Below are positions 4,573 through 31,136 of a stretch of 64,000 nt of DNA, piece after piece. The position numbers and the translations under genes were made by a program. The DNA is from an uncultured Roseburia sp. (GTDB taxonomy: Bacteria > Bacillota > Clostridia > Lachnospirales > Lachnospiraceae). Position 1 is the stretch's first letter. Each line of letters opens with the position of its first letter. Where the stretch lies: NCBI GenBank assembly GCA_947647505.1, contig CANSKO010000003.1, forward strand, positions 1-64,000. Reading direction: 5' to 3'. The notes beneath the pieces were generated by a model, which saw nothing but the letters and a program-made list of their open reading frames with translations, was not told the origin of the DNA and did no database searches.

Positions 4573-7500
4573 CTATTTCAGTATGACCTTTTTGCTGATT
4601 CCGGCTTTTTTCAGCTTCTTAAGAAGTTTGGAACGCTGTGCTGTTTTCATTTTCTTAGGAACGTTTACTGTTATCTTTGCCGATGTTTTTTTGAACGCGC
4701 CGGACGAAATTTCCGCTAGCGCTGTTCCTTTTAATTTGAGTTTTGATAACCGTTTACAATTGGTAAAGCACTGTTTTTCAATTGTTTTTACATAAGCGCC
4801 AAGTGTAACGGATTTTAATTTCTTACAGTTTTTGAATACGCTCGCACGGATCGTGACAACCTTGTATACAGAGCCGCCGATATTTATGGTATCTGGAATG
4901 CTAAGCGTTTTAGCCTTTTTGTTCTCAAATTTTGTGACGGCGGCCGTCTGTTCGGTTGCGCTTATCACCTGATACGTAATGCCGTTTGCGATGACAGTTT
5001 TCAAAGCAGGAGGCGGCGTACAGGTGGTATTGTCAGAAGGGACATTGCCTGCCGGCGGAAGACTGGCAAGGCCTGCCTTTGCATCCAGCAGTTTCTTTAA
5101 CAGCGCGCGCAGTGTTTCAACGGTTGCGTCTTCCGGAGGATTGCCCGCAGCTTCATAGGCGGCTTTAAAAGCGTCCCATGTAGCCTGTGAATAACCGTTT
5201 TGTCCGGCCTGATACAGAGCGGACGCGTCGGAAAGCGCGCTGGAAAGTTCATTCTCAGCCTGACTAAAAGCCAGAGCGTCTTTGAAATCGGTTACTTCTT
5301 TTAATGCATCCTGCAATGGCTTTAGCGCCTGCAACATGATTTCCGCTTTTTCTTCGTCTGTCAGATCGTTCGGAATCGTCTGGTCCGCATCTTCACAGGC
5401 ATGGATAAATTCGGTCCAGATATCGTCTGGAACCCCGCCCTGCTCCTGCGCTTCTTTTTTGGCCGCTGCAAGCGTTGCTTCAAATTCGGATTTCAGCGCG
5501 GAAAAATCTTTGATATGGAGCGATTTCTTTGCTTCTTCCAAATCAGCGGTGACGCGGTAAAATTCTGCACGCGCGGCGCCTTTTTGCGCAAGGATCTGTT
5601 CCGCCGTCTGTCGAAGCGCTTCGAGCGTTTCTGCATTTTCATACAAAGAAGCATATTCCAGGGGAATCTGTAATGCTTCATAGGCATCCAGAAAGAGCGA
5701 ATAAGCATACGCATAAATGACTTCTGTTTTCTTATGCGCGCTGTCCCGTTCACAGGTGTAAATTTTTTCACCATCGGACTCTCTTGTAACTTCTGCCGTT
5801 ATTTCGGCATTCTCTGTATCCCAGACATGTCCTCCCGGAATGGAACTGCCGGCTTCTATGATAGCGTTGCACTGACTGCAAATCGTATCGCCTGTGTAGC
5901 CATCGCTGTCGCAGGAAGCTGTTCTCTGGTTTTTCACGGATGTCTCTTCATGATTGCAGGAGGGATCCGGGTCCGGGTGTTCCTCTGTTACCTGAATGTC
6001 GTAGAGGGTTTTGTCGATGACAGCCTGTGTGCATCCTTCGCCAATTCCGCTTATGATAAGGTCTGTGCGTGCGGATACGTCGGACGGATCTGTCAGCTTT
6101 GTCATGCTATTCCAGTTTTCGCCCGGAAACAGCACGATTGCTTTATTGTCAACAAGATGCGCAATCAAATATTTTTTGCCTGAAACAATGCTGTCTGCTT
6201 TTTGATATCCCGGAATGAAGCCGTCTGTCGCAGAGGGATCTTTTTCCAGAAGCGAAAGCTCGTAGTTAAACCTTCCGGTATCGGAATTGTAGCCTGTATT
6301 GGCGTTGAAATTCATCTGATCCAGATAAAAGATCAGGTATCGGTCGGCTGGATTGCCCTGCGAGGTTCCGTTTTCGTTATGAATGCGAAACGTGTCGCTA
6401 TCTTCACTGCTCTTTTCAACGGTCATGTCGGAGGATGCATCTTCAAAGACGGGTTCTCCGCTGGAACGATTGGTCAGGTAAGTCTGCTCTGCTTCGTTAT
6501 AAATTGTCCATGTCGTGCCGCTGCCTGTAAATGTAAATTCTGCATGCTCCAGAAGAGCCGTTTCATTTTTTGTGGTGGAAAACGAGCTGAGGCTGTTTTT
6601 TACGGCAGAGCCGGAATGGTCGAAAACAGCAAATGAACTGTTTTCAGAAAATTCAATTTTAGCAATGTCGGCATCCGGTTCAACGGTGATGTTTTTTTCA
6701 CCCTGATAGTCTGTAATGACATGCGTCCCTTCTTTCTCAAGCATAACATCGACTGCGCTGCTTTGAGAATAAGGTGAAACTTCTCCTGTTTCGCTGATCT
6801 GGAAACGGTCGTAAAGGATTTCTTTATGACTTGGTTCCCATAAAAGGCCAATGGTACCGTCTTCAAGCTCTGTCAGACAGGAATAGACAAACGTTCCATA
6901 GCCGCCCTGTCCTCCCGGAACGGCAAAGCGATGCAGCTCTTCCATAGAACCGTCTGCGTTTATCGCAAGCGTTAAAATAACGCCGTTTGCACGCACGCCA
7001 GAAGGCGCGGAAACAAAAACGATCTGCCGGCCGTCTATTTTTTTGGAATAGGAGAGAGCGGATAAGTTGCAGCCTTTGTGAAGGGAAATGTCTGTCTGTA
7101 CGGCTGTGCCAAGCGCATATGTGCCGTCGTCCTGTAAGGTTGCGTCTACGTAGCAAAGATTTCCGACTGCGGCCTGATAGCCTCCATGCCGGAAAAACAT
7201 GCGCAGCGTGCCGTCCTCCAGTTCAATGATTTCGTTTTCGGAAGAAGTGTCAATCTCTGTACCTGAAACTGTCTGCATATCCTCCGTCCGTCTCCATGTG
7301 GAGCCATTATCTGTGGAGTATGCAATGCTGGCGGCTTCTCTGCCCGGTTTTGAATTATAAAAGCCGATCGCCATCGTTCCGGAATGAGTTGTGATGCCTT
7401 TTCCGGGGGAAACAAGAAGCGCTTTATCGTTGTCATCGTCGCTTCGTTTGATCTGTGGGTTTAAAATAACGGGATTTTTCCATGTGCGTCCATAGTCGGT

Positions 7501-8373
7501 AGAAACGACCATCCAGAGGTAGCCCGTCTCATAAACATGAAGTTCGGAACCTTCATAGAAGACGTTCTGCTGAATTTCCTGATCCGTATCAACCTGCGTC
7601 TGTTTCAGCTCCGTGCGCGTTCCGTCATTGTCTGTCCGGAACAGATTATACCAGTCGTCTACGCAGTATTCGGACGGAGAATCGTCGTTCATATGAAGAA
7701 CGGGCGCATAGCCGTCCTCGTAGTCGCCTACATAATACTCATACTCTGCGTCTTTGTCCGGCCGCTTCTTTGCTTTTCCGGCAAAATCCGCGGTCAGCGC
7801 AAGCCTCTCCGTTCCGTTGACGTTTACAAAACCGGTGCCATGCCCCGGCGCGCGGTAGCCGCCCATCGTCGTAACGCCGGTGGGATTGACGTCGGCAATG
7901 CAGTAAATCGTTCCATCCGGTCCTGCAATTACGCCGGGATCGATAATCGTAGTCGCTTTGTTTCCGGCATTTTGATTGCTGTCCGGAAAGTAAATTGGAA
8001 AGCTGTAATGCCATGTTTTTCCTCCGTCGCCGGAAACGGAAGCGATTGTATCAAGCCCTCCGCCGTCGGGAGAAGAGCCGTCGCCGGAAATTCTGTCATA
8101 TCTGGCGTCTGCAACAGCAAGAATTTCACCGTTTGCAAGTGTTGTAAGAGCAGGAATGCGAAAATGATCCGAACCTGCCGTCCCTTTCGGAAAAGGGCCT
8201 CCTTTTGTAAAATTCTGCATGCTGACGGGGATGCTGCCGGCCTTCATCAGCGTGGGCTTGTCCGTTGATTTTGCCGCAACGGAAAGCGGATAGGATGGGA
8301 GGGAGGAAATCGTTAAAATTCCTGCGACAGCAATGCTTATGCCGCGTTTGTAAAAAGATATGTTTTTTTTCAT
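4573..8373 (-). CDS. secreted exo-alpha-sialidase (GH33-like) with Cys/His module, helical repeats and C-terminal LRR_5/BspA-like module
   Basis: Signal peptide (MKKNISFYKRGISIAVAGILTISSLPSYPLSVAA); FRIPAL motif; Asp boxes SGDGGKTW, STDYGRTW and STDNGSTW. Start set at 8373, where AGGAGG precedes the ATG, rather than the ORF-track start at 8601. Confidence 0.9.
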   Translation of the reverse strand: MKKNISFYKRGISIAVAGILTISSLPSYPLSVAAKSTDKPTLMKAGSIPVSMQNFTKGGPFPKGTAGSDHFRIPALTTLANGEILAVADARYDRISGDGSSPDGGGLDTIASVSGDGGKTWHYSFPIYFPDSNQNAGNKATTIIDPGVIAGPDGTIYCIADVNPTGVTTMGGYRAPGHGTGFVNVNGTERLALTADFAGKAKKRPDKDAEYEYYVGDYEDGYAPVLHMNDDSPSEYCVDDWYNLFRTDNDGTRTELKQTQVDTDQEIQQNVFYEGSELHVYETGYLWMVVSTDYGRTWKNPVILNPQIKRSDDDNDKALLVSPGKGITTHSGTMAIGFYNSKPGREAASIAYSTDNGSTWRRTEDMQTVSGTEIDTSSENEIIELEDGTLRMFFRHGGYQAAVGNLCYVDATLQDDGTYALGTAVQTDISLHKGCNLSALSYSKKIDGRQIVFVSAPSGVRANGVILTLAINADGSMEELHRFAVPGGQGGYGTFVYSCLTELEDGTIGLLWEPSHKEILYDRFQISETGEVSPYSQSSAVDVMLEKEGTHVITDYQGEKNITVEPDADIAKIEFSENSSFAVFDHSGSAVKNSLSSFSTTKNETALLEHAEFTFTGSGTTWTIYNEAEQTYLTNRSSGEPVFEDASSDMTVEKSSEDSDTFRIHNENGTSQGNPADRYLIFYLDQMNFNANTGYNSDTGRFNYELSLLEKDPSATDGFIPGYQKADSIVSGKKYLIAHLVDNKAIVLFPGENWNSMTKLTDPSDVSARTDLIISGIGEGCTQAVIDKTLYDIQVTEEHPDPDPSCNHEETSVKNQRTASCDSDGYTGDTICSQCNAIIEAGSSIPGGHVWDTENAEITAEVTRESDGEKIYTCERDSAHKKTEVIYAYAYSLFLDAYEALQIPLEYASLYENAETLEALRQTAEQILAQKGAARAEFYRVTADLEEAKKSLHIKDFSALKSEFEATLAAAKKEAQEQGGVPDDIWTEFIHACEDADQTIPNDLTDEEKAEIMLQALKPLQDALKEVTDFKDALAFSQAENELSSALSDASALYQAGQNGYSQATWDAFKAAYEAAGNPPEDATVETLRALLKKLLDAKAGLASLPPAGNVPSDNTTCTPPPALKTVIANGITYQVISATEQTAAVTKFENKKAKTLSIPDTINIGGSVYKVVTIRASVFKNCKKLKSVTLGAYVKTIEKQCFTNCKRLSKLKLKGTALAEISSGAFKKTSAKITVNVPKKMKTAQRSKLLKKLKKAGISKKVILK

Positions 8374-8512
8374 ATTATACCTCCTGATTTTAATTGGTTT
8401 CTGTTTTTCATTATAGAAGAAAACAAAGAATCTTTCAATAAAAATGAAAGATATGGAAACAGAATTTTTATCCGAAAATAATGAATATTTAATTAAGATA
8501 TGATAAATCCTG

Positions 8513-8541
8513 TTGAGTATGGGGAAAGAAAAGAGTATACT
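8513..8541 (+). promoter_or_regulatory. sigma-A-type promoter for the PAP2/pssA/psd unit
   Basis: TTGAGT-17 nt-TATACT, about 30 nt upstream of the 8572 start. Confidence 0.6.
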
Positions 8542-8571
8542 TGTAACAAAACGACACATCGGGAGAAGTGA

Positions 8572-9237
8572 ATGAAAAAGGAACAAAAGCAAATCCTGCA
8601 CAGAATGCCGGCATATAGCGTTTATCCGCTTCTTTTTGCAGTTTTCTTCAATATGCTGGTTTATTTTGGATCACGATGCATTGCCGGAGGCTGGCATCAT
8701 TATAATATTGAAAGCCCGTTAGACAGACGGATTCCATTATGGGCTCCGTCCGTTGTAATTTATCTGGGATGCTATCTGTTCTGGGCGGCCAATTATATTC
8801 TGATTGCGCGGCGGGACAAAAAGGAAGTCTGTCAGTTCTTTTCCGCCGACTTTATATCCAGGATTGTCTGCCTGGCGTTTTACCTGTTATTTCCAACGAC
8901 GAATACAAGGCCTGTGATCGAGCCGGATGGCTTTTGGAACAGAGCGATGCTTTTTTTGTATCAGACGGATGCGGCGGATAATCTGTTTCCATCGATTCAC
9001 TGTCTCGTAAGCTGGTTTTGTTATATCGGGATACGCGGCAAAAAAGAGATACCCGTCTGGTATCGCGGCTTTTCCTGCATCATGGCAATTGCAGTCTGCA
9101 TGTCTACGCTGCTGACCAAACAGCATGTAATCATAGACGTGGCAGGAGGCATTTTGCTTGCAGAACTGTGTTTTTGGATTGGAAAACAGCCCGCAGTATG
9201 GGGCGCATACAAAAAGGTTCTGGACAGGCTGACATGA
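8572..9237 (+). CDS. PAP2-family membrane phosphatase
   Basis: Multi-TM; FPSIHCLVSWF and KQHVIIDVAGGILLAEL PAP2 motifs. Confidence 0.8.
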   Translation: MKKEQKQILHRMPAYSVYPLLFAVFFNMLVYFGSRCIAGGWHHYNIESPLDRRIPLWAPSVVIYLGCYLFWAANYILIARRDKKEVCQFFSADFISRIVCLAFYLLFPTTNTRPVIEPDGFWNRAMLFLYQTDAADNLFPSIHCLVSWFCYIGIRGKKEIPVWYRGFSCIMAIAVCMSTLLTKQHVIIDVAGGILLAELCFWIGKQPAVWGAYKKVLDRLT

Positions 9238-15592: not shown

Positions 15593-16564
15593 TCAGGATT
15601 TTGCGCCGGCATTGGATATATGCAATCCATCCTCTTCGGGGGACTCTTCTGACATATCATGCAGGAGCAGCTTTCTATATTGGCTTGGGGGAAGGCCGAT
15701 AATGCTTCGAAACAGCTTGGAAAAATGCTGGGAATCTTTCAGGCCTACCTGTGTGGAGATGCTGGTCAGCGTAAGCGTTGCGTCTGACATCAGATCAATT
15801 GCCTGATTGATGCGGTATATATTGATATAGTTTAAAATCGTCAGGTTCATATGGTGAAAAAAGAGCTTACTCAGATAGCGGGCGGATATGTTCAGATGCG
15901 CGGCAATTTCCGGAATCAGGATTTTGCTCGCATAATGTTCATGAATGTAGGAAAGCGCATACGTAACATAGCGAATCTGTTCCGGCGCATGCGTCGCTTC
16001 ATCTGTAAGCTGCGCGTGATTTGGGCGGATCAGCTGAATCAGATAGAGCAGGAGTTCCGCCATATGCAGATTGGACATGGCGGAAGAAAGCAGGCTTTCT
16101 TCGTTTGTTTCTTCTATGATAGCATCGACCAGGAAAGAAATTTTTTTATCTGCGGCCATGTGAAGATAATAGTCGCAGGGAATCGTCAAAGCGCTTATGA
16201 GATCTAATGCATATGGATGGCCCTGGTCGAGATACCAGCGGGAATAAAAGGATGGTCCGAAATGAATGTGCCGGAACGCGCAGACGTCTGTTCTTTTCAG
16301 ATGAAACGAATGCACGGTATTTGGGTAGATCAGAATAAAGTCTTTTTCCTGAAAGAGAAAGGTTTTGTTATTAATATCCATTTCGCAGCAGCCGGAATCT
16401 ATCAGATAAATTTCAATCGTCCTGTGAATATGCTTTGCAAAGCTGTAGGGAGATTTGCGCACTTGTCGGGAGGCGCTGAGGATCGTTTGCGTTCCAAGAA
16501 AAACTTCGCCTGTGCCGACAGGGCTTTTTTTAGGAAAATATTGGGAATTTGCCATAAAGACCAC
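15593..16564 (-). CDS. AraC-family transcriptional regulator
   Basis: N-terminal cupin (HIHRTIEIYLIDSGCCEMDINNK); C-terminal double HTH (NISARYLSKLFFHHMNLTILNYINIYRINQAIDLM... VGLKDSQHFSKLFRSIIGLPPSQYRK). The start may be the internal ATG (MANSQYF). Confidence 0.92.
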   Translation of the reverse strand: MVFMANSQYFPKKSPVGTGEVFLGTQTILSASRQVRKSPYSFAKHIHRTIEIYLIDSGCCEMDINNKTFLFQEKDFILIYPNTVHSFHLKRTDVCAFRHIHFGPSFYSRWYLDQGHPYALDLISALTIPCDYYLHMAADKKISFLVDAIIEETNEESLLSSAMSNLHMAELLLYLIQLIRPNHAQLTDEATHAPEQIRYVTYALSYIHEHYASKILIPEIAAHLNISARYLSKLFFHHMNLTILNYINIYRINQAIDLMSDATLTLTSISTQVGLKDSQHFSKLFRSIIGLPPSQYRKLLLHDMSEESPEEDGLHISNAGAKS

Positions 16565-16699: not shown

Positions 16700-17752
16700 G
16701 TGAAGAAAAAAATCTGTATAATTAGTACAATAGTAATATTATCCGCACTTGTTTTTGCAGGAATTTATGTCAGTAAAAACAGGTTTTCTCTTACCATTAA
16801 CGGAAGCAAAATAGACAAAGAAGAATTTTTAGATGCGGCGCGAAGAAAGCAGTATGACGTGACAAGTTATTTCTCCGGAAAAAATGGGAGCAATGTAGAC
16901 GGCGGATTCTGGGAGCGGGAGATCGATGGCGAGACGCCTTATGAGAAGCTTGCAAAAGAAGCGCTGGAAGAATTGAAATATTTTCATGCGGTATACGGTC
17001 TGGCCGTTGAAAAAGGATATGTTGAAGACGACAGCTATGCGGCTTTTCTGAAACGCTGGGAAGCGGAAAACGCTCTCCGAAAAGAAAAGATAGAGAAAGG
17101 TGAGGTCGTATACGGATTGTCCGAGTATACGCTGGAGCTATATCGTGAATACGAAATGGACGTCATACAAAAGTCATATTGTCAGGATCTGGAAAATGAA
17201 GGAATGGAAATATCTGATGCGGACAGAGCGCAATATTACAGCGAACATGAAGCTTCTTACAAGCGTGAGGACGACCGGATACTGGATTATGTAAAAATAC
17301 CCTATGAAGAATATGGAATAGAAGAAGCCGAGACGAAGAAATTGAAAAAGCAGCTGACTGCGATTTACAAAAAGCTGGATGAAAGCAATTCCCTGGAAGC
17401 GCTTGCGAAGGAAGAGGCGTCTATTTCTCCGTGGCTGTATCATTCTGAGGTCAGAGAAGAGGAGCTGTCCATGCATTCCAGAATGATCAGCGATATACTC
17501 GAATATGCGTGGGATCTGGAAGAAGGGGAGTCTACGCCGGTTCTGGATGAAAACGGCTGCCTGTATCTGATCGCCTGTACCGAAAGAACGTCCAATGAGA
17601 AGACTTCTTTGGATGAAATGAAAGACAATATCAATAAAACGCTGCGGGAACAGCGCTATGATGCAATCATAGAACAGCGCGCAGCAGACAGCAAAGTGGA
17701 ATGCGACATGGAGCAGATTTATCTTTTTATGAAAAAGAATCTAAATAATTAA
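16700..17752 (+). CDS. membrane-anchored SurA/PrsA-like helical protein; candidate dedicated foldase (GH136-I/LnbY-like) for the downstream beta-helix enzymes
   Basis: N-terminal TM; LTINGSKIDKEEFLDAARRKQ (SurA_N-like); C-terminal parvulin-like text (ESTPVLDENGCLYLIACTERTSNEKTSLDEMKDNINKTL). GTG start with a GGAG RBS. Confidence 0.6.
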   Translation: MKKKICIISTIVILSALVFAGIYVSKNRFSLTINGSKIDKEEFLDAARRKQYDVTSYFSGKNGSNVDGGFWEREIDGETPYEKLAKEALEELKYFHAVYGLAVEKGYVEDDSYAAFLKRWEAENALRKEKIEKGEVVYGLSEYTLELYREYEMDVIQKSYCQDLENEGMEISDADRAQYYSEHEASYKREDDRILDYVKIPYEEYGIEEAETKKLKKQLTAIYKKLDESNSLEALAKEEASISPWLYHSEVREEELSMHSRMISDILEYAWDLEEGESTPVLDENGCLYLIACTERTSNEKTSLDEMKDNINKTLREQRYDAIIEQRAADSKVECDMEQIYLFMKKNLNN

Positions 17753-17770: not shown

Positions 17771-20245
17771 ATGAAAAAAAGAATGTTAGCGCTGTTATGC
17801 ACGGTGGCGATGGCGGGAATGAGCCTGCACTGTCTGCCGTCTGTGCCGGCGAAGGCTGCTGAGACAGGAAAAACCTATTATATCAGCAGCAAAAGGGGAG
17901 ACAATGCAAGAGCCGGGACTTCTCAGAGAGAGGCATGGGAAACGCTCGATAAGCTGAAAAGCGTAGATCTTCAGCCGGGAGACCGGGTGCTTTTGGAAAA
18001 AGGATCGGTGTTTTACGGATACATTCATCTTCAGGATGTGCATGGGACGGAAGAGGCGCCGATTCAGATTGGCAGTTATGGAACGTCGGAGAGCCGCCCG
18101 GTGATTCATGCAAACGGTCAGGGCGTCTGGCATCAGTCTTATGGAGGAGCGGTTGAAAATCAGAATCATCGATCCAGAGGATATGTATCTTCGGCCCTTT
18201 TGCTTTATGATGTGGATTTTGTAGAAGTAAGCGGACTGGAATTGACGAACGAATCGGATGATTTTGAATTTTTTAAAGGAGCGGCAGTAAGCGCATCGGA
18301 AATTGACAGCCGCATGGACCGCACCGGCGTGGCCGGCATTGCAAAAGACGGCGGCACAATGGAGCATATCTATCTGAATGATCTTTACATACACGACGTA
18401 GATGGCAATATCGAAGATAAACATATGAACAACGGGGGAATTCAGATGAACGTCCTTCCTCCGGAAAATGAAGCGGCTACCGGAATTGCCCGCTATCATG
18501 ACATAAAGATAACAAACTGCCACATAAAAGACGTTTCGCGGGCAGGCATCTGCGTGGGATATACGTACAACGGGAGTAAATTTGACGGGATGGCGATTGC
18601 AGACGAGACGGCGCAGACGTATGGGCACACAGATGTGCTGATCGAGGGGAATTATGTGCAGAATGCCGGCAACGACGGTATCGTTGCCATGTATGCGTAT
18701 CGGCCATTGATTCAGAGAAACGTTGCAGATAAGGCCGGAGCGGATCTTGAGACTTACAAGCCGGGCGAGCATCCGGAGTTCTGGCAGCCATTTTGCGCGG
18801 CAATCTGGCCCTGGAAGTGCAAAGACGCCGTTTTTCAGTATAACGAAGCGTTTGACATGGTGGAAAATCAGGATGGACAGCCGTGGGACGTTGACTGGTC
18901 GGACGGAACGGTATATCAGTATAACTACAGCCATAATAATGGCGGCGGATGCATTATGTTCTGTCTGGAAGAAGCGTATCAGGGCGTGTTTCGTTACAAT
19001 ATCAGCCAGAATGACCTGCGGGGCCTGATCGCATTGGACAACAATCCCAAAGCGGCAATTTATAACAATGTATTCTATATCGGAAAAGATCTGAGCACGA
19101 AGCTGTTTATGGATTCCAACCCGTTTATTCCCGGAAAAGACAGCTATACCGGCGCTGCGGATCTGAGAAACAATATTTTCTACAATGAAAGCACAAAGAA
19201 AAGCGAGGAAGAGACAATCGTAAGCGCCGGGCGCACATTCCAGAATAATATATTTTACGGATATGAAGGAAAGACGCTTCCGGAAGGCGCGATTACGTCT
19301 GATCCGAAACTAAAGGATCCGGGCGCGGCGCCGATTGCATCTTTATCTGGAAAAATACATGAAGACAAAGCTGTATTTGACGGTTATACGCTGCGGGAGG
19401 GATCGCCGGCAATCAATGCCGGGATTCTGGGAGAACGCAGCGCCAAATATGATTTCTTTGGCAATCCGGTGGGCGCGCAGCCGGATATCGGCGTTTTTGA
19501 ATCGGATGCAAAAGAGACGGTTCTGGCGCTTGGAGGAGATCGCGTAACAATAGAAAACGGAAAGATTACGCAGACGCCAAAAGGCATGAAAATAAAAGAA
19601 CTGAAAGAACAGCTTGTCTATGCCAGAGACGTTTCAATCCAGTTCATGAAAAATGGTCAGGAAGCGCAGGAAGAGGATGAAGTGACGTCGGATGTGACGG
19701 TTCGCATTTCAAGAGGCGGAGAGACGGTTTCCTATGCGGTTGAAATGGCAAGAAACATTACGTATGCAGATTACGAGCCGGACGCACAGATGCGGGCGTC
19801 TGTGCAGACAGGAAGCGAAGAGACGGGCGCTTCGGAGGGAGCCGCAGAATATCCAACGCCAGCGTCCAATGCGCTGGATGGCAATACCAGCACAATCTGG
19901 CATACACGGTGGGAAGGAACGGCACAGTCGGACGTATGGCTTCTGATTGATCTGGGAAGCAGCAAAAAAGCAGCCCGATTCACCTATATTCCAAGGCAGA
20001 ATAATAATACTGGAATTATCACGAAATACAAAATAGAAGTCAGCCAGGACGGGACAAACTGGACACAGGCGGCGGAAGGGACATGGAGCTCGGATGTGAC
20101 GACAAAATATGCGTTTTTTGATGAAGTGCAGACGCGGTATGTGAAACTGACAGGACTGGAGTCGCTGCCCATGGGAGGCGGCAAGCCGGCTGGCAGCGCT
20201 GCGGAAGTGCGTGTGGGCTACATAAAAAATATTTCGGATCAGTAA
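17771..20245 (+). CDS. secreted right-handed beta-helix enzyme A1 (GH136-like) with C-terminal F5/8C (CBM32-like) domain
   Basis: Signal peptide; TYYISSKRGDNARAGTSQREAWETLDKL...; conserved DGQPWDVDWSDGTVYQYNYSHNNGGG; C-terminal DGNTSTIWHTRWEG...VWLLIDLGSSKKAARFTYIPRQ. Start chosen at 17771 after GGAGAAAG. Confidence 0.8.
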   Translation: MKKRMLALLCTVAMAGMSLHCLPSVPAKAAETGKTYYISSKRGDNARAGTSQREAWETLDKLKSVDLQPGDRVLLEKGSVFYGYIHLQDVHGTEEAPIQIGSYGTSESRPVIHANGQGVWHQSYGGAVENQNHRSRGYVSSALLLYDVDFVEVSGLELTNESDDFEFFKGAAVSASEIDSRMDRTGVAGIAKDGGTMEHIYLNDLYIHDVDGNIEDKHMNNGGIQMNVLPPENEAATGIARYHDIKITNCHIKDVSRAGICVGYTYNGSKFDGMAIADETAQTYGHTDVLIEGNYVQNAGNDGIVAMYAYRPLIQRNVADKAGADLETYKPGEHPEFWQPFCAAIWPWKCKDAVFQYNEAFDMVENQDGQPWDVDWSDGTVYQYNYSHNNGGGCIMFCLEEAYQGVFRYNISQNDLRGLIALDNNPKAAIYNNVFYIGKDLSTKLFMDSNPFIPGKDSYTGAADLRNNIFYNESTKKSEEETIVSAGRTFQNNIFYGYEGKTLPEGAITSDPKLKDPGAAPIASLSGKIHEDKAVFDGYTLREGSPAINAGILGERSAKYDFFGNPVGAQPDIGVFESDAKETVLALGGDRVTIENGKITQTPKGMKIKELKEQLVYARDVSIQFMKNGQEAQEEDEVTSDVTVRISRGGETVSYAVEMARNITYADYEPDAQMRASVQTGSEETGASEGAAEYPTPASNALDGNTSTIWHTRWEGTAQSDVWLLIDLGSSKKAARFTYIPRQNNNTGIITKYKIEVSQDGTNWTQAAEGTWSSDVTTKYAFFDEVQTRYVKLTGLESLPMGGGKPAGSAAEVRVGYIKNISDQ

Positions 20246-20257
20246 AGAAGGAGGTTT

Positions 20258-22693
20258 ATGATGAGAAAAAGAGGATTTACCATTATCCTGTCGGCTGCGC
20301 TTTGTTGTTCTTTTGCAGCTCCGGCGCTGGAAATCGCAGCGGCGGAAAAAGCAGACGGCGCGCAGGGAACAACATATTACGTCAGTACGCTGCATGGAAA
20401 AGACAGAAATAACGGAACAAGCCGGCAGGAACCATTTTACAGTCTGCAAAAGATCAATGACCTGGATTTGCAGCCGGGCGATCGGATACTGCTGGAAAGT
20501 GGATCTGTGTTTGAAGACGGTTATCTGCACCTGTTTGGACAGAGCGGGAGTGAAGAGGCGCCAATTGTCATTGACCGGTATGGCGAGGGCGCAGATCCTT
20601 TGATTCGGACGAACGGGCAGGGCGTCTGGTATCAGAATTATGGAAAACAGTTAGACAGCGCGAGCCATGTTTTTCAGGGCTATGTATCATCCTCTGTTCT
20701 TTTGTATGATACGGAATATATCGAGATTCGAAATCTTGAGATCGAAAACAGGGCGCCGCGGGTTGATACGTTTTATAATGCGGCCGATGTCATGAATCGC
20801 ACCGGCGTAGCGGCTGTGGCGCAGGATAAAGGGACGATTGAGCATATTTATCTGGACGGGCTGAATATTCACGACGTCAACGGAAATGTCTACGACAAGC
20901 ACATGAACAACGGCGGAATTTATTTTACGGTGTTTATGCCGCATAATGAGCAGGATACGGGAATCGCCCGTTATGACGATGTGAAGATTGAGAACTGTTC
21001 CGTAATCAATACGAACCGCTGGGGCATTGCCGTAGGCTATACGGCGTATCACGATCAGTTCACGGGCAGGGAAATTTCGGATTCCGCGATCGCGCAGTAT
21101 GGCGCGACCAACGTGGTGGTTCGCAATAACTATGTAAAAGACGCCGGAGGAGACGGCATCACAATGATGTATTGCGACAGGCCGTTGGTGGAATATAACG
21201 TATCGGACGGCGTGGCAAAGCATATGAATACAGAAATTTATGCCAATCCGGGCAATCGGGGCGGAAGAGTGGCGGCCGCAGTCTGGCCGTGGAAATGCAA
21301 GGATGCGCTGTTCCAGTACAACGAAGTGTTTGACACGCAAAATGGCGCCAGCGGAAACGGGGATGCACAGGCATGGGACGCGGATTCCGGCGACGGCACG
21401 CTGTATCAGTACAATTACAGCCACGGCAATACGGGCGGCTGCGTTATGTTCTGTTATCCGCAGGCGTATCAAAACACATTCCGGTATAATATCAGTCAGG
21501 GAGATCTGATGGGAATGCTGGATGTTTCCAGTAATCCGGATGCGCATGTATACAACAATGTATTCTATATAGAAGGAGAAAACGTAAATTTTCTGCGCGC
21601 CGATCATGCGGACGGAAGCGCAAGGGTAGAGAATAATATTATTTATTATGCTGGAGAGGAGCCAAAAACGGAAAACTGGCAGAGGAATCCTGCAAGACAG
21701 ACTTATTCGAATAATTTGTATTATAATTACGCGAATGTGCCGGAAAGCGACGCCAATGCCGTTGCCGTAGAAAAAGGCGAGCCTGTTTTTGTAAATGCCG
21801 GAAGCGCGCCTGTATTTGCGTCGGGCGTAGCCCGTCTGCATTATAATCCGGGCGTACGAAGTGAATTTGACGGTTACAAGCTTGTGAAGGATTCGCCGGC
21901 AATCGGAGCGGGCATAAAGATTACGGATGCCAATGGAAAGGAACTGTGTCAGACAGATTTCTTTGGAAATGAAATATCAGCTTCGGAAACGCCGGATATT
22001 GGGGCGCATAAATATCAGTCGGAGGAAGGAATGCTGCCGCCGCCTGCGCCGCAGATCACGGAGGCTGCTGAAGCGACGGAGAATACGGTCGTCCTTTCCT
22101 GGCCGACAGTCGGAGAAATGGCGGGCGTAGCCGGGTATAAAATTATGAACGGCAGCCAGGAGCTGATGGATATTACGAATCCCGCGGATGTAACCGATTC
22201 CGAAAAAAATCTGATATCCGTTCGGCTGGAAAATCTGGAGCCTGGAACAACGTATACGATTTCCGTTGTCGCATACGATGCGGAAGGGACCAAATCAGAA
22301 CCGGCGGTCTTTACAGTAAAAACAGCGGGCAAAGAGGAAGAAAATCCCGGAGGGGATAATCCGCCGAATCCTCCTGTTGTAAATCCGGGCGATACGAATC
22401 AACCGAATCCCCCGGCTGTAACGCCAGGCGGCAACGATGCGGCAGGAACGGTAACGCCACCGGATGAGAAGCCAACGCTTAAAGTGAAAAAATCGCTGAC
22501 TGTCAAACGGGGCAAAAAGAAAAAACTGAATGTGAAGACGACTGCTAAAGGAAAAATCACATATAAAAGCAGCAATAAAAAGGTAGCGGCTGTGACAAAG
22601 AAAGGCGTTGTTACAGGAAAAAAGAAAGGCAGCTGTAAAATTACGATTCGCTGTGGAAGCCTGAAAGCGGTTGTAAAAGTAAAAGTCAAATAG
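20258..22693 (+). CDS. secreted beta-helix enzyme B1 (GH136-like) with Fn3 and Big2-like basic C-terminal domain
   Basis: Signal peptide; TYYVSTLHGKDRNNGTSRQEPFYSL...; GDAQAWDADSGDGTLYQYNYSHGNTGG; Fn3; tail KGKITYKSSNKKVAAVTKKGVVTGKKKGSCKITIRC...KVKVK. Confidence 0.8.
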   Translation: MMRKRGFTIILSAALCCSFAAPALEIAAAEKADGAQGTTYYVSTLHGKDRNNGTSRQEPFYSLQKINDLDLQPGDRILLESGSVFEDGYLHLFGQSGSEEAPIVIDRYGEGADPLIRTNGQGVWYQNYGKQLDSASHVFQGYVSSSVLLYDTEYIEIRNLEIENRAPRVDTFYNAADVMNRTGVAAVAQDKGTIEHIYLDGLNIHDVNGNVYDKHMNNGGIYFTVFMPHNEQDTGIARYDDVKIENCSVINTNRWGIAVGYTAYHDQFTGREISDSAIAQYGATNVVVRNNYVKDAGGDGITMMYCDRPLVEYNVSDGVAKHMNTEIYANPGNRGGRVAAAVWPWKCKDALFQYNEVFDTQNGASGNGDAQAWDADSGDGTLYQYNYSHGNTGGCVMFCYPQAYQNTFRYNISQGDLMGMLDVSSNPDAHVYNNVFYIEGENVNFLRADHADGSARVENNIIYYAGEEPKTENWQRNPARQTYSNNLYYNYANVPESDANAVAVEKGEPVFVNAGSAPVFASGVARLHYNPGVRSEFDGYKLVKDSPAIGAGIKITDANGKELCQTDFFGNEISASETPDIGAHKYQSEEGMLPPPAPQITEAAEATENTVVLSWPTVGEMAGVAGYKIMNGSQELMDITNPADVTDSEKNLISVRLENLEPGTTYTISVVAYDAEGTKSEPAVFTVKTAGKEEENPGGDNPPNPPVVNPGDTNQPNPPAVTPGGNDAAGTVTPPDEKPTLKVKKSLTVKRGKKKKLNVKTTAKGKITYKSSNKKVAAVTKKGVVTGKKKGSCKITIRCGSLKAVVKVKVK

Positions 22694-22727: not shown

Positions 22728-25205
22728 ATGAAAAAGAAAATGTTGGCAGTTGCATGTATGCTGACTGTGGTGGGGACCGGGATCGGATTTCCACTCGCCG
22801 GAACAGATGTTGCAGAAGCGGCGGAAACAGGCACGACGTACTATATCAGCAGCATTCATGGCGATAATGCAAAGCGTGGAACATCGGCGTCCGAGGCATG
22901 GGAGACGCTGGATAAGCTGATCGAGGATGTGAAATTAAAGCCGGGTGATTCGGTGCTGCTGGAAAAGGGGTCAGTGTTTAATGATGCCTATATTCATTTG
23001 TATGATGTGCATGGAACGGCGGACGCGCCGATTGTCATCAGCAGCTATGGCGAAGGAAACAAGCCAGTCATCAATGCAAACGGACAGGGCGTGTGGTATC
23101 AGTCTTATGAAAAAAGAACGATAAATGAGGATGGAAGCATTACGACGAACGTCATGATGGACAATTCCAATCACAAGTATAAGGGCTATGTGTCATCCGC
23201 TATTTTGCTTTATGATGTGGATTTTGTGGAAATCAGCGATCTGGAAATTACAAATGAATCGGATGATTTCGATTATTTTAAGGGCGCCGCAAGCAGCGTC
23301 AGTGAAACAAGCGGACGTATGGACCGCACCGGCGTATCGGGAATCGCAAAAGACGGCGGCACAAGCGAGCATATCTATCTGGACAATCTGTATATTCATG
23401 ATGTCGATGGCAATATCGAAGATAAGCATATGAATAACGGCGGAATTCAGATGAACGTCATACCGCCCAAAGATGAGGCGGCTACCGGAATTGCAAAATA
23501 TCACGATGTAAAGATTACAAACTGTTATGTCAGGAAGGTTTCAAGAGCCGGCATCTGCGTAGGATATTCCTATCAGAACGCAAAATTCAACGGAGCGGCA
23601 ATTTCCGACGAGGCGGCGCAGAAATATGGGCAGACGGATCTGGTTATTGAGAACAATTACGTAAAAGACATCGGAAATGATGCGATTGTGGCGATGTATT
23701 CGTACCGTCCGCTTGTGCAGTACAATATATCCGACCGGTCCGGCGCCGATATGGATATGTCCGACGGAGGCTATGCAAGCCATTGGCAGCATTTGTGCGC
23801 GGCAGTCTGGCCGTGGAAATGCAAGGACGGCGTGTTCCAGTACAATGAAGTGTTTGACACGGTAGGAGACAACAATCAGGACGCGCAGGCGTGGGACATC
23901 GACTATTCGGATGGAACGGTGTACCAGTACAATTACAGCCATAATAATGGCGGCGGAGCAATTATGTTCTGTGGCGGCGAAGCGTACAACGGCGTATTCC
24001 GTTATAATATCAGCCAGAATGATCTGCGGCATCTGATGCATCTGGCCGGAAATCCAAATGGCGAAGTTTATAACAACGTATTTTATATTGACGGAGAGCT
24101 GGATACGCAGCTTGTCAGCGGCGCAGGGCCGACAACGATCAGAAATAATATTTTCTATAATATCAGCAGTGGAAGAAAGGCGGATGAAACGATCGTACAT
24201 GACAGCCGCACATACTCCAACAACATATTCTATGGCTACGATGGCATTACGCTGCCGGAGGGATCTATTACAGAGGATCCGAAGTTTGCAGATCCGGGTA
24301 AGGCGCCAAACGGAGTGCTGGGAGAAGACAGAGCTACACTGCATGAAAGAAGCGTTTACAATGGCTATAAACTGCAAAGCGATTCGCCCGCGATCAATGC
24401 CGGCGTTTTCGTGGAAGGCGCGCCAAAATATGACTTCTTTGGAAACAGAGTCGGTCTTGTGCCGGATATTGGAGCATTTGAATCCAATGCAGCAGAGCCA
24501 GAGCTGGGCGTGAAAGCAGTTGGAAAGGCAGCCGTTATCGTTTCGGATACGAAGATTTCGGAAGCGCCTTCCGGCATGACGGTAAAAGAGCTGGAAGAGC
24601 AGCTGATCTATGCACAGGATGTTACATTTAAAGTATTAAACGGCGGACAGGAAGCAGGTCCGGAAGATGTGCTTACAAATTCGATGCAGGTGCAGGTTGC
24701 AAGAGGCGGCGAGACGAAATCCTACACGCTCGAGATCGCAAAAGAGTATAAAGAGTACGATCCGTCCACAACGACTGCAACGGCAGGAAGCGCAGAGACG
24801 AGTCAGGGAGAAGTTGCCGCAAAGGTATGCGACGGTGACATAAGCACAATCTGGCATACGGCATATGCGGGATGCGAGCAGAGTCAGGTCTGGGTTGAGC
24901 TGGATCTTGGAGAAGTAAAACCGGTAGCCATGGTGAAATACGTTTCAAGGTCGACAGGCGGAGCAAACGGCGTATTCCGGGATTATAAAGTGCAGGTGCG
25001 CAGCGCGGAGACAGAGGAATGGCAGACGGTGGACGCCGGAACCTGGAGTAAATCGAGTGTAGGCAGCGTGGAATATTCGAAATTTGATACGGTAAATGCG
25101 CGCTACGTAAGGCTTGAAGGCACGAAAACGCTGACAGCGCCGGGCAGCGAAAATAAAGTTTTTGGTTCTGCCTCGGAAATTCATGTTGGCTATGAAGTGA
25201 AATAA
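22728..25205 (+). CDS. secreted beta-helix enzyme A2 (GH136-like) with C-terminal F5/8C (CBM32-like) domain
   Basis: Paralog of A1; QDAQAWDIDYSDGTVYQYNYSHNNGGG; C-terminal CDGDISTIWHTAYAGCEQSQVWVELDLGEVKPVAMVKYVSR. Confidence 0.8.
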   Translation: MKKKMLAVACMLTVVGTGIGFPLAGTDVAEAAETGTTYYISSIHGDNAKRGTSASEAWETLDKLIEDVKLKPGDSVLLEKGSVFNDAYIHLYDVHGTADAPIVISSYGEGNKPVINANGQGVWYQSYEKRTINEDGSITTNVMMDNSNHKYKGYVSSAILLYDVDFVEISDLEITNESDDFDYFKGAASSVSETSGRMDRTGVSGIAKDGGTSEHIYLDNLYIHDVDGNIEDKHMNNGGIQMNVIPPKDEAATGIAKYHDVKITNCYVRKVSRAGICVGYSYQNAKFNGAAISDEAAQKYGQTDLVIENNYVKDIGNDAIVAMYSYRPLVQYNISDRSGADMDMSDGGYASHWQHLCAAVWPWKCKDGVFQYNEVFDTVGDNNQDAQAWDIDYSDGTVYQYNYSHNNGGGAIMFCGGEAYNGVFRYNISQNDLRHLMHLAGNPNGEVYNNVFYIDGELDTQLVSGAGPTTIRNNIFYNISSGRKADETIVHDSRTYSNNIFYGYDGITLPEGSITEDPKFADPGKAPNGVLGEDRATLHERSVYNGYKLQSDSPAINAGVFVEGAPKYDFFGNRVGLVPDIGAFESNAAEPELGVKAVGKAAVIVSDTKISEAPSGMTVKELEEQLIYAQDVTFKVLNGGQEAGPEDVLTNSMQVQVARGGETKSYTLEIAKEYKEYDPSTTTATAGSAETSQGEVAAKVCDGDISTIWHTAYAGCEQSQVWVELDLGEVKPVAMVKYVSRSTGGANGVFRDYKVQVRSAETEEWQTVDAGTWSKSSVGSVEYSKFDTVNARYVRLEGTKTLTAPGSENKVFGSASEIHVGYEVK

Positions 25206-25218
25206 GAAGGAGAAGTCT

Positions 25219-27660
25219 ATGATGAAGAAAAAGATTTTAGCAGTCGTTGCCGCCGTCGCGATGCTCTTCTCTGTTGCAGCGCCGGATATCGAAGCTGACG
25301 CCGCTGTAGACAGAACGGGCGCCGTGGGCACGACGTATTATGTCAGCACGCTTCGTGGAAAAGACAGCAACAGTGGCACGAGTAAAAATGAACCGTTTTA
25401 CAGTCTGAGAAAAATCAATGAGCTGCAATTACAACCAGGCGATCAGATTCTTTTAGAATGCGGCTCCGTATTTAAGAATGGCTATCTGCATTTGTTTGGA
25501 CAGTCAGGAAGCGCAGAGGCGCCAATCGTCATTGACCAGTACGGCGAAGGGGCGGACCCCATCATTGATACGAACGGGCAGGGCGTGTGGTATCAGAATT
25601 ATGGAAAACGCCTCGATAATAACTGGCATAAGTATCAGGGCTATGTATCGTCCTCCATTCTGCTGTATGATTCCGAATATATTGAAATAAGGAATCTGGA
25701 GATAGTCAATCAGTCTCCAAAGGTCGATAATTATTACAATGCTGCGGATATGATGGACCGTACCGGCGTTGCAGCCGTAGCGCAGGATAAGGGAACGATC
25801 GACCATATCTATTTGCAGGGACTGAATGTGCACGATATCATTGGAAATGTATACAACAAGCATATGAACAACGGAGGCATTTATTTTACGGTGTATGAGC
25901 CGCATAACGAAGAAGCGACGGGCGTGTCCCGTTACGATGACGTGCGGATTGAAAATTGCAGCGTAACCAACACGAATCGTTGGGGAATTGCAGTTGGATA
26001 TACGACCAAATGGGACAGATTTCAGGGCAGCGTAATTTCAGACGAAACGATTCAGACATACGGCTCCACAAATGTTACGATTCAGAACAACTATGTCAAA
26101 GACGCCGGAGGCGACGCGATTACGCTGATGTATTGCGACAGACCGCTGGTGCAGTATAATGTGTCAGACGGTGCGGGAAGACAGATGCATACGGCGGATT
26201 ATCTGCCTTCTGTAGATGGCTCACAGAGATTTTCAGCGGGCATCTGGCCGTGGAAATGTAAAGACGGCTTATTCCAGTATAACGAAGTATTTGACATGCA
26301 GAACATCAACGGTGAAAACGGAGATGGCCAGGCATGGGATGCGGACTGGACGGATGGAACGATTTACCAGTATAACTACAGCCATAACAACGGAGGCGGC
26401 TGTCTGATGGTTTGTCTGTCAGAAGCATATCGGACGACGTTCCGCTATAATATCAGCCAGAATGACTTAAAAGGCGTGCTCTGTATTTTCTCAAGCCCGA
26501 AAGCGCACATTTACAACAATGTCTTTTATGTGCAGGAAGACGTGCCGATTCATCGTGAGCAAAAGAGCGGAGGCGAGGCGCTGCTTGAGAACAATATCTT
26601 CTACTATACAGGTGAAACGCCAAGAACAGAAGACTGGACCGTAGGCAATAATAAGACGTATAACAATAACCTGTATTACAACTATGCAAACACGCCGACC
26701 GATGCAGGCGCGGTTGTTGTAGAAAAAGGCGATCCGGTCTTTGTCAATGCCGGAAGCGCGCCGCAAATGACGACGGGATCTGTGCGGCTGCATGAGGATC
26801 CAAACGTCAGAAGTCCATTTGACGGATATAAGCTGGCAGAGGGTTCCGCAGCGATTGGAGCAGGAAAAGTCGTTACGGACGCCAATGGCATGGATATGTG
26901 CGAAAAAGATTTCTTTGGCAACGCAATTTCAGCGGAAGAGACGCCGGATATCGGGGTGCACAAGTATCAGGAAAATGAGAATCCGACGATTCCTTCCATG
27001 CCGGACAGAGCGGAAATAAACGAAACAACGGAAAATTCGGCGTCCATCAGCTGGCCTGTTTTATGGGATACAGAGGGAATTGCCGGTTATAAGATCATGG
27101 ACGGCGATCGGGTTTTGCTTGATATTGACGATCTGGATGCAGCGATGGATCCGGATACGCAGATGATTACCGTTTCCTTTACCAACTTGCAGCCGAATAC
27201 GAGATATACGATGTCTGTTGTCGCATATGATGTAAACGGCGTGGAATCAGAGCCGCAGCAGTTTACATTTGTGACGGCAGGTCAGCCGAAGCAGGATGAA
27301 AAACCGGACGACGGCAATAATCCGGGCGGCAACGAAACGCCGGCGCCCACGCCGGACACTCCGGGTGGCGGGCAGCCGCCTGTAGTGGAAAATCCACCGG
27401 GCAATACGGGTTCACAGGGCGAAGAAATCAGCAATAAACAGAAAATAACGGTTAAGAAATCGATTACCGTAAAGAGGGGCAAGAAAGTAAAACTGAAAGT
27501 GACGGTAAAGCCCAAAGGCAAGATCACGTATAAGAGCAGCAATAAGAAAGTCGCTTCCGTCAATAAAAAAGGCGTAATCACAGGCAAGAAGAAGGGAAGC
27601 TGCAAGATTACGGTGAAATGCAACGGAGCGAAGAAAACCGTAAAAGTAAAGGTAAAATAA
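25219..27660 (+). CDS. secreted beta-helix enzyme B2 (GH136-like) with Fn3 and Big2-like basic C-terminal domain
   Basis: Paralog of B1; GDGQAWDADWTDGTIYQYNYSHNNGGG; Fn3; tail KGKITYKSSNKKVASVNKKGVITGKKKGSCKITVKCNGAKKTVKVKVK. Confidence 0.8.
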   Translation: MMKKKILAVVAAVAMLFSVAAPDIEADAAVDRTGAVGTTYYVSTLRGKDSNSGTSKNEPFYSLRKINELQLQPGDQILLECGSVFKNGYLHLFGQSGSAEAPIVIDQYGEGADPIIDTNGQGVWYQNYGKRLDNNWHKYQGYVSSSILLYDSEYIEIRNLEIVNQSPKVDNYYNAADMMDRTGVAAVAQDKGTIDHIYLQGLNVHDIIGNVYNKHMNNGGIYFTVYEPHNEEATGVSRYDDVRIENCSVTNTNRWGIAVGYTTKWDRFQGSVISDETIQTYGSTNVTIQNNYVKDAGGDAITLMYCDRPLVQYNVSDGAGRQMHTADYLPSVDGSQRFSAGIWPWKCKDGLFQYNEVFDMQNINGENGDGQAWDADWTDGTIYQYNYSHNNGGGCLMVCLSEAYRTTFRYNISQNDLKGVLCIFSSPKAHIYNNVFYVQEDVPIHREQKSGGEALLENNIFYYTGETPRTEDWTVGNNKTYNNNLYYNYANTPTDAGAVVVEKGDPVFVNAGSAPQMTTGSVRLHEDPNVRSPFDGYKLAEGSAAIGAGKVVTDANGMDMCEKDFFGNAISAEETPDIGVHKYQENENPTIPSMPDRAEINETTENSASISWPVLWDTEGIAGYKIMDGDRVLLDIDDLDAAMDPDTQMITVSFTNLQPNTRYTMSVVAYDVNGVESEPQQFTFVTAGQPKQDEKPDDGNNPGGNETPAPTPDTPGGGQPPVVENPPGNTGSQGEEISNKQKITVKKSITVKRGKKVKLKVTVKPKGKITYKSSNKKVASVNKKGVITGKKKGSCKITVKCNGAKKTVKVKVK

Positions 27661-29667: not shown

Positions 29668-31107
29668 TTGAAGCGATATAAGAAAACAGTCTTCCTGTTG
29701 GGCGTGGCAGTCTGCGTACTGGCGGCGGCTTCGCCGACATGGGCCAAAAAAGGAAAAAACAGTCAATACTGGCCGGCCGGACCTGAGATTGTTTCCGCAT
29801 CCGGAATCGTTATAGAGGTTGACACAGGGACGATTCTTTATGAAAAAAATGTGCATGACGCATATTATCCGGCAAGCATTACGAAGATTTTGACGACGCT
29901 TCTGGCGATAGAAAACAGCGGCATGGATGAAGTCGTCACATTTTCCAGCGACGCTGTGCATAAGACGGAAGGGTCGGGCATTGCGCGCGATGTCGGAGAA
30001 GAGATGACGATGGAGCAGTGCCTGTACGGCGTTATGCTGGCCTCTTCGAATGAATGCGCCTATGCGGTGGCAGAGCATGTGACGGGAGGGGCGATCGATG
30101 CGTTCATTCAGATGATGAACGAACGGGCTGTGCAGATTGGCTGTAAGAACACGCATTTTACAAACTGCCACGGACTGCCGGATGAGCAGCATTATACGAG
30201 CGCTTACGACATGGCGCTGATTGCGCAGGAAGCCTATAAAAATGAAACGTTTCGCATTATCTGCGGAACGAAGACGTATACGATTCCATTTACGAACAAG
30301 CATACCGATGAAGAGACGTATCTGCAAAATCATCACCAGATGCTGTATCCGTACCGGACGAGAAAATATCTCTATGACTATTGTCTGGGCGGCAAGACAG
30401 GCTATACGATTGCCGCAAAAAATACGCTCGTCACATATGCGGAAAAAGACGGCATGACGTTAATCTGCGTCGTGATGAACGCGCAGAGCGGGCATTATGA
30501 CGATACGAGGGCATTATTTGATTTTTGCTTTGACAATTTTAAGCAGGTGAATGTTTCGGAGCATGAGACGGCGTATGCGCAGCAGGACCAGGAGAGCGAA
30601 AGCATTCAGGAGAACAGTCCGCCGTTTGTGGAAATTGACCGGTCCAGCCGTATTATTCTGCCGATTACCGCAGAATTTTCAGATGCAAAATCCAAAATCG
30701 TATACAATGATACAGATTCTGATGTGCTGGGAAGTATAGAGTATAAGTATGCGAAGCGTGCCGTTGGAAAAGCGGATATTACGGCTACAAATGCAGCAGT
30801 CGATGTATTTCCGTTTCAGGATGGAATGGAAGGAGAGGCGTCTTATAAGGAAACGGACGAGCAGCCAAAAGCGGAAACGGACGGGCAGCAAAAAAATCCC
30901 ATTCGGATCAATTTTGGTCTGATTGCCAGGATACTGGCGGCTGTCGCTGCGGTTGCGGCGCTTCTGATCGTTGGATGGAAAGCGTTTGACCGTTTGCGTG
31001 GGATGCGTCTGCGGCGCGGACTTCATTTTGGAAAAAAGGAGCGGTCGCCGTATAAGACGATCCGGCAGAATAAGATGTGGAGAAAGCACAGGAAGTGGTT
31101 TCGATAA
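29668..31107 (+). CDS. serine-type D-alanyl-D-alanine carboxypeptidase (peptidase S11)
   Basis: SITKIL (SxxK), SSNECA (SxN), GGKTGYT (KTG); signal peptide; C-terminal TM anchor. TTG start. Confidence 0.93.
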   Translation: MKRYKKTVFLLGVAVCVLAAASPTWAKKGKNSQYWPAGPEIVSASGIVIEVDTGTILYEKNVHDAYYPASITKILTTLLAIENSGMDEVVTFSSDAVHKTEGSGIARDVGEEMTMEQCLYGVMLASSNECAYAVAEHVTGGAIDAFIQMMNERAVQIGCKNTHFTNCHGLPDEQHYTSAYDMALIAQEAYKNETFRIICGTKTYTIPFTNKHTDEETYLQNHHQMLYPYRTRKYLYDYCLGGKTGYTIAAKNTLVTYAEKDGMTLICVVMNAQSGHYDDTRALFDFCFDNFKQVNVSEHETAYAQQDQESESIQENSPPFVEIDRSSRIILPITAEFSDAKSKIVYNDTDSDVLGSIEYKYAKRAVGKADITATNAAVDVFPFQDGMEGEASYKETDEQPKAETDGQQKNPIRINFGLIARILAAVAAVAALLIVGWKAFDRLRGMRLRRGLHFGKKERSPYKTIRQNKMWRKHRKWFR

Positions 31108-31136
31108 CCCATGCATCAGGAACAGGAGGAGATGAG

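Follow-up and report, generated by a model that had tools for sequence, protein, structure and literature searches.

The window, a stretch of 64,000 nucleotides from an uncultured Roseburia sp. (contig CANSKO010000003.1), encodes on its forward strand a 350-residue protein (16700..17752; GTG start at 16700, stop at 17752), behind which follow four genes for GH136 beta-helix enzymes in the order A1, B1, A2 and B2, separated from one another by 12 to 34 nt. A1 (17771..20245, + strand) carries a signal peptide and an F5/8C (CBM32-type) domain beside its beta-helix, and A2 (22728..25205, +) an F5/8C domain, while B1 (20258..22693, +) and B2 (25219..27660, +) each combine the beta-helix with Fn3 and Big_2 domains. 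All four matched the LnbX profile at E values of 1e-121 to 1e-163 (A1 6e-126, B1 1.6e-163, A2 2.3e-121, B2 5.1e-159), and PDB entry 7v6m matched A1 at 1e-132 and B1 at 8e-187. An earlier reading of this stretch from its letters alone (the sequence-only reading) had recognized the 350-residue frame and placed its end 18 nt before A1; both are correct, the latter with ATG 17771 as the start of A1, which lies behind GAGGAG and is a better start than the first one of that open reading frame (ATG 17753).

The catalytic aspartate pair, D568 and D575 in the numbering of Eubacterium ramulus Lnb136 (PMC7335108), was intact in all four enzymes, with D369 and D376 as the pair in B1. The enzymes have signal peptides, and neither an LPxTG motif nor a C-terminal transmembrane (TM) helix was present in them. 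A1 and A2 carry an alanine where the B-type and E. ramulus enzymes have tryptophan (RWGIAVGY to RAGICVGY), possibly reflecting an altered substrate pocket. Within an assembly that is approximately 87% complete, these were the only GH136 catalytic domains found, and 16700..17752 was the only LnbY-type gene, although further copies may exist.

A divergently oriented AraC-family regulator gene (15593..16564, - strand; HTH_18 6e-18, AraC_binding 1e-11) precedes the operon and probably controls it. Scans for promoters and terminators gave matches at chance level. A large BNR-repeat sialidase-like protein and a large GDSL-esterase protein are encoded nearby (4573-8601 and 31077-34955), and each carries BspA-type leucine-rich repeats; this neighbourhood suggests host-glycan use.

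Architecture and identity of the 350-residue protein

The AlphaFold model of the 350-residue protein (mean pLDDT 93.6, pTM 0.79) ran from a TM helix through an N-lobe and a helical core to a parvulin domain of mixed alpha/beta build, and closed with a long C-terminal helix. The N-terminal anchor proposed in the sequence-only reading was borne out by a predicted helix at residues 2-26 (16703..16777, +) with a mean hydropathy of 2.5; it is a TM helix with no lipobox, so a PrsA-type lipoprotein anchor is absent. The N-lobe (residues 28-90; 16781..16969, +), which includes NGSKIDKEEF, had been described as SurA_N-like: structure comparison with Foldseek agreed, but the Pfam SurA_N_3 match (E 0.016) fell under the cut-off. 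It is followed by the helical core (residues 91-188; 16970..17263, +), which is common to all GH136-I forms and holds conserved residues. What had been taken for a parvulin-like C-terminus is indeed parvulin, but as a whole domain (approximately residues 189-300; 17264..17599, +), behind which comes a long helix with its tail (residues 301-350; 17600..17749, +), including R316 and Y320; this helix occurs in all forms. Pfam Rotamase_2 matched above its cut-off of 27 bits (29.4 bits, E 1.6e-6), and a match to PRK00059 was also obtained.

The proposed placement of the protein in the LnbY/GH136-I class, as a divergent member, was upheld by several comparisons. The LnbY profile (NCBIfam NF047894) matched at E 1.2e-40 (140 bits) in two stretches, residues 30-184 (profile 43-197) and 299-345 (profile 204-250), which are nearly adjacent in LnbY; the parvulin domain fills the gap between them, and a parvulin-less relative, here called a short form, matched the same profile in one piece. 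The score misses the LnbY equivalog cut-off of 400 bits, and the protein is therefore not named an LnbY equivalog; since clear short forms reach only 146-175 bits, this cut-off marks near-orthologues of LnbY rather than the class. The structural comparison with the E. ramulus Lnb136 helical domain that the sequence-only reading had proposed found 6kqt with a Foldseek probability of 1.00 (rmsd 6.4, TMq 0.33, E only 0.064), behind SurA/PrsA-type structures at the top ranks (3nrk at 1e-8, SurA, PrsA). For the model of a short form (pLDDT 91.3), 6kqt and 6kqs ranked first and second, ahead of SurA.

A profile built only from GH136-adjacent relatives that retain the parvulin domain (long forms) matched PDB 6kqs, hence the E. 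ramulus helical domain, at 8e-7 and matched no PrsA. The match was split in three; its second and third pieces are contiguous in the crystal sequence, whereas in the profile the parvulin domain comes between them. PrsA/SurA matches of a mixed alignment (A3) were discounted because it contained true PrsA rows; the repeat alignment restricted to long forms (A6) matched 6kqs and no PrsA. A single-sequence PDB search with the 350-residue protein returned nothing useful, and no relatives were found in the viral contigs searched. Together with the co-encoded GH136 enzymes and their intact aspartate pairs, these matches place the protein in the LnbY/GH136-I class. The compact, PPIase-less build of the described members was not what we found; as a whole parvulin domain is present, we term the protein a long-form variant rather than a plain GH136-I member. 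The absence of this domain from known LnbY and GH136-I proteins is the main novelty here, and was overlooked in the sequence-only reading.

Relatives of the partner and fate of its parvulin domain

Scanning 85,488 genomes with the four window enzymes yielded 77 named loci. With the window included, a GH136-I-like relative adjoined or was fused to the enzyme in 59 of 78 loci, the exceptions being nearly all cytosolic enzymes or cut contigs. As the same kind of gene adjoins GH136 genes in many unrelated Bacillota, the arrangement in the window is not a matter of chance. The GH136-I-like proteins sorted into four forms. Long forms (approximately 350 aa, with TM or lipid anchor, SurA-like N-lobe, helical core, parvulin domain and C-terminal helix) included, besides the window protein, about 25 relatives from Hominisplanchenecus, Clostridium, Robinsoniella, Anaerobium, Streptococcus suis, Paraliobacillus and others. 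Short forms (approximately 250 aa), for example in an exported system of E. ramulus, are anchored and have no parvulin domain; minimal forms (150-220 aa) have no TM helix, and fused forms are joined to the enzyme. A hydrophobic anchor was present in all 43 long and short forms and in none of the 17 minimal and fused forms, and client location matched, being exported or cytosolic accordingly.

At least 55 of 60 GH136-I proteins share G134, Y138-G139, Y151-E152 and Y180, and Y138-G139, Y151-E152, Y180 and Y320 are common to all forms. The stretch missing from short, minimal and fused forms is the parvulin domain only (approximately residues 200-302 of the window protein), after which the C-terminal helix resumes. 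The excision point corresponds to LFTRYHGD in E. ramulus, the tyrosine of which is Y145, a residue that lines and helps form the active site of Lnb136 (PMC7335108) and has no clear counterpart in the 350-residue protein. Two further observations concern outlying relatives. At one locus (L078, 191-1021), a normal short form is preceded at a distance of approximately 2.4 kb by a second, very divergent LnbY-like gene of 276 aa. In three others (L145, L146, L148), the LnbY-like protein has a parvulin domain devoid of the histidines; the locus is conserved, glgC-like genes adjoin, and no neighbour encodes a beta-helix.

In agreement with the suggestion that an active PPIase core is lacking, the two parvulin histidine columns are occupied by tyrosine in the window protein (Y197 at 17288-17290 and Y289 at 17564-17566, +). 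Across 27 long forms, the first column held 22 Tyr and 5 Phe and the second 21 Tyr, 5 Phe and 1 Val, against His in 6/6 and 4/6 PrsA rows. On these residues, catalysis by the long-form domain is unlikely, and the aromatic side chains at both columns may mark a repurposed pocket. Conservation of the domain came close to that of the core (2.40 versus 2.68 bits per column), so that it probably does something; its probable role is to bind clients, not to isomerise prolyl bonds. The missing histidines alone were rejected as a sign of dedication, given that they are likewise absent from two other parvulins encoded in this genome.

In trees rooted on PrsA, long forms were paraphyletic, short forms formed one clade (98/89), and minimal and fused forms another (100/100); the topology was similar after removal of unstable rows. 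This reads as long forms being ancestral and the parvulin domain having been lost once or twice. A single loss was not rejected (AU p 0.085), hence we do not claim two. With long forms ancestral under this rooting, we read the GH136-I helical subunit, which had been reported to have a new fold and no more than weak PPIase similarity (PMC7335108), as a PrsA/SurA foldase stripped of its parvulin domain. Partner and client distances correlated at r 0.77-0.79, a value that carries no species-tree control.

Where enough flank was available, at least two GH136 ORFs, a few of them fragments, followed the long form in 15 cases and a single one in 6 others, while none of 23 parvulin-less forms preceded more than one. 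As only two phylogenetically independent contrasts underlie it, the association of long forms with several clients is a lead, not a result. Approximately 14 cytosolic single-domain GH136 enzymes in two clades (L099, L102, L105-L108, L110-L112, L116, L120, L122, L126) had no adjoining partner gene, and in 11 of 13 such genomes none was found anywhere. These clades have apparently dispensed with the partner, so that a partner is not required for GH136 folding in every case. A column contrast between partnered and partner-less enzymes revealed no clear partner signature. In the opposite direction, distant GH136-like beta-helix proteins (L139-L144) keep the aspartate pair, have no WPWKCK substrate motif and each adjoin a more distant LnbY-like gene, indicating that the pairing is broader than lacto-N-biosidases.

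Three GH136 genes with neighbouring locus tags in Limousia pullorum ET540 are induced 2.7-3.8 log2 on mucin (PMC12997984). In its close relative An172 (L082), a long form is accompanied by at least two GH136 genes, from which long-form operons are probably used on mucin, and by extension the window operon may be as well. One client of another long-form partner carries a dockerin (L072, 8004-10643) and may join a mucinolysome (cf. PMC12997984).

Proposed function and comparison with known systems

Taken together, the 350-residue protein is very likely a membrane-anchored extracytoplasmic foldase or subunit of PrsA/SurA descent dedicated to the four GH136 lacto-N-biosidase-like clients, so that the interpretation offered in the sequence-only reading is supported overall. 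That the protein folds its clients, and that one protein serves all four, is what we infer. For LnbX of Bifidobacterium longum and GH136-II of R. hominis and R. inulinivorans, the partner is required for activity (PMC7335108, PMC8106489). The protein would act outside the membrane on A1, B1, A2 and B2: after their export, its helical core (residues 91-188) and the helix at 301-330 would embrace the beta-helix, as the helical domain does in E. ramulus Lnb136, and let it fold into an active enzyme, with the parvulin domain serving to bind and not to isomerise. Weighing against this account are the LnbY score below the equivalog cut-off, the lack of a clear counterpart of Y145, the partner-less cytosolic enzymes and the missing partner signature in the column contrast.

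A PrsA-type foldase of general use after translocation, standing in front of GH136 genes by accident, would account for the PrsA/SurA fold found by Foldseek and for the Rotamase_2 and PRK00059 matches. It is nevertheless very improbable: the genome encodes three other parvulin-type proteins, one of them a lipoprotein resembling PrsA, encoded next to an mfd-like gene; close relatives of the window protein adjoin GH136 genes and not the mfd-prsA-spoVT locus, which lies elsewhere than at this gene; and in the tree the protein falls inside the GH136-partner clade, apart from PrsA (96/92). A generic catalytic PPIase was the outcome that the sequence-only reading had set against its own proposal; the fold is indeed PrsA/SurA-like, yet both catalytic histidines are gone. 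A second alternative keeps the partnership but narrows it to some clients, for example the B type, with the A type folding alone or having another function. In its favour, the GH136 enzymes paired with short, minimal and fused forms all lie outside the A-type clade; the clade itself (17 enzymes, including A1 and A2) was nevertheless confined to loci with a long form and to contigs that break off ahead of the partner gene, and no second partner gene was found in the approximately 87% complete genome, which leaves this restricted role unlikely.

Dedication to all four enzymes is also compatible with the protein remaining bound as a permanent subunit, one anchored protein that forms four alternative heterodimers and tethers the enzymes to the membrane. 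The window clients, with their signal peptides and no LPxTG or C-terminal TM helix of their own, would suit such a tether; in E. ramulus the corresponding part is a permanent domain, its interface measuring approximately 1618 square angstroms, and a TM helix is likewise present in RiGH136-I (PMC7335108). It is a poor fit to other long-form systems, some clients of which bring their own LPxTG, C-terminal TM helix or, in L072, dockerin, and we regard this version as possible but not the favoured one.

On a broader and rather doubtful reading, GH136 partners would record a foldase turning into an enzyme subunit. The long form would be a reusable anchored foldase for several paralogous enzymes, with a dead parvulin domain binding unfolded clients; in a lineage with a single enzyme, the domain would have been excised at a loop that then joined the active site; and the resulting one-to-one subunit would have become cytosolic and been fused to its enzyme, and been dispensed with in two cytosolic lineages. 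Long forms as such are a missing link, a GH136 subunit with the entire PrsA/SurA body still attached, and this origin would explain the chaperone behaviour of an enzyme subunit. The natural pairs with and without the parvulin domain offer test material for such a transition and, in practical terms, expression of these mucin and milk-sugar enzymes should include the co-expressed 350-residue gene.

Among known systems, LnbY of B. longum, the designated chaperone of LnbX, is homologous to the window protein over residues 30-184 and 299-345, and both stand beside an LnbX-type GH136 gene. Unlike the window protein, LnbY has no parvulin domain, as read from its 253-position profile NF047894, and it is described with one LnbX, whereas four GH136 genes follow the window gene. 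ErLnb136-I of E. ramulus (PDB 6kqs/6kqt) and RhLnb136-I share the helical core, the C-terminal helix and a GH136 beta-helix partner, but have neither TM helix nor parvulin domain; in ErLnb136-I the active-site loop with Y145 occupies the place of that domain. RiGH136-I of Roseburia inulinivorans, compared by its description (PMC7335108), is like the window protein a TM-anchored partner of an exported GH136-II. PrsA, SurA and HP0175 display the same N-lobe, parvulin domain and C-terminal helix by Foldseek, but the long forms have the histidine pair replaced by Tyr/Phe (one Val), and the window operon is dedicated to GH136. The lipase-specific foldase Lif, likewise a helical steric chaperone anchored in the membrane, with its gene next to that of its client, would work alike; we know of no sequence relation between Lif and the window protein, and Lif serves one client, of a different fold.
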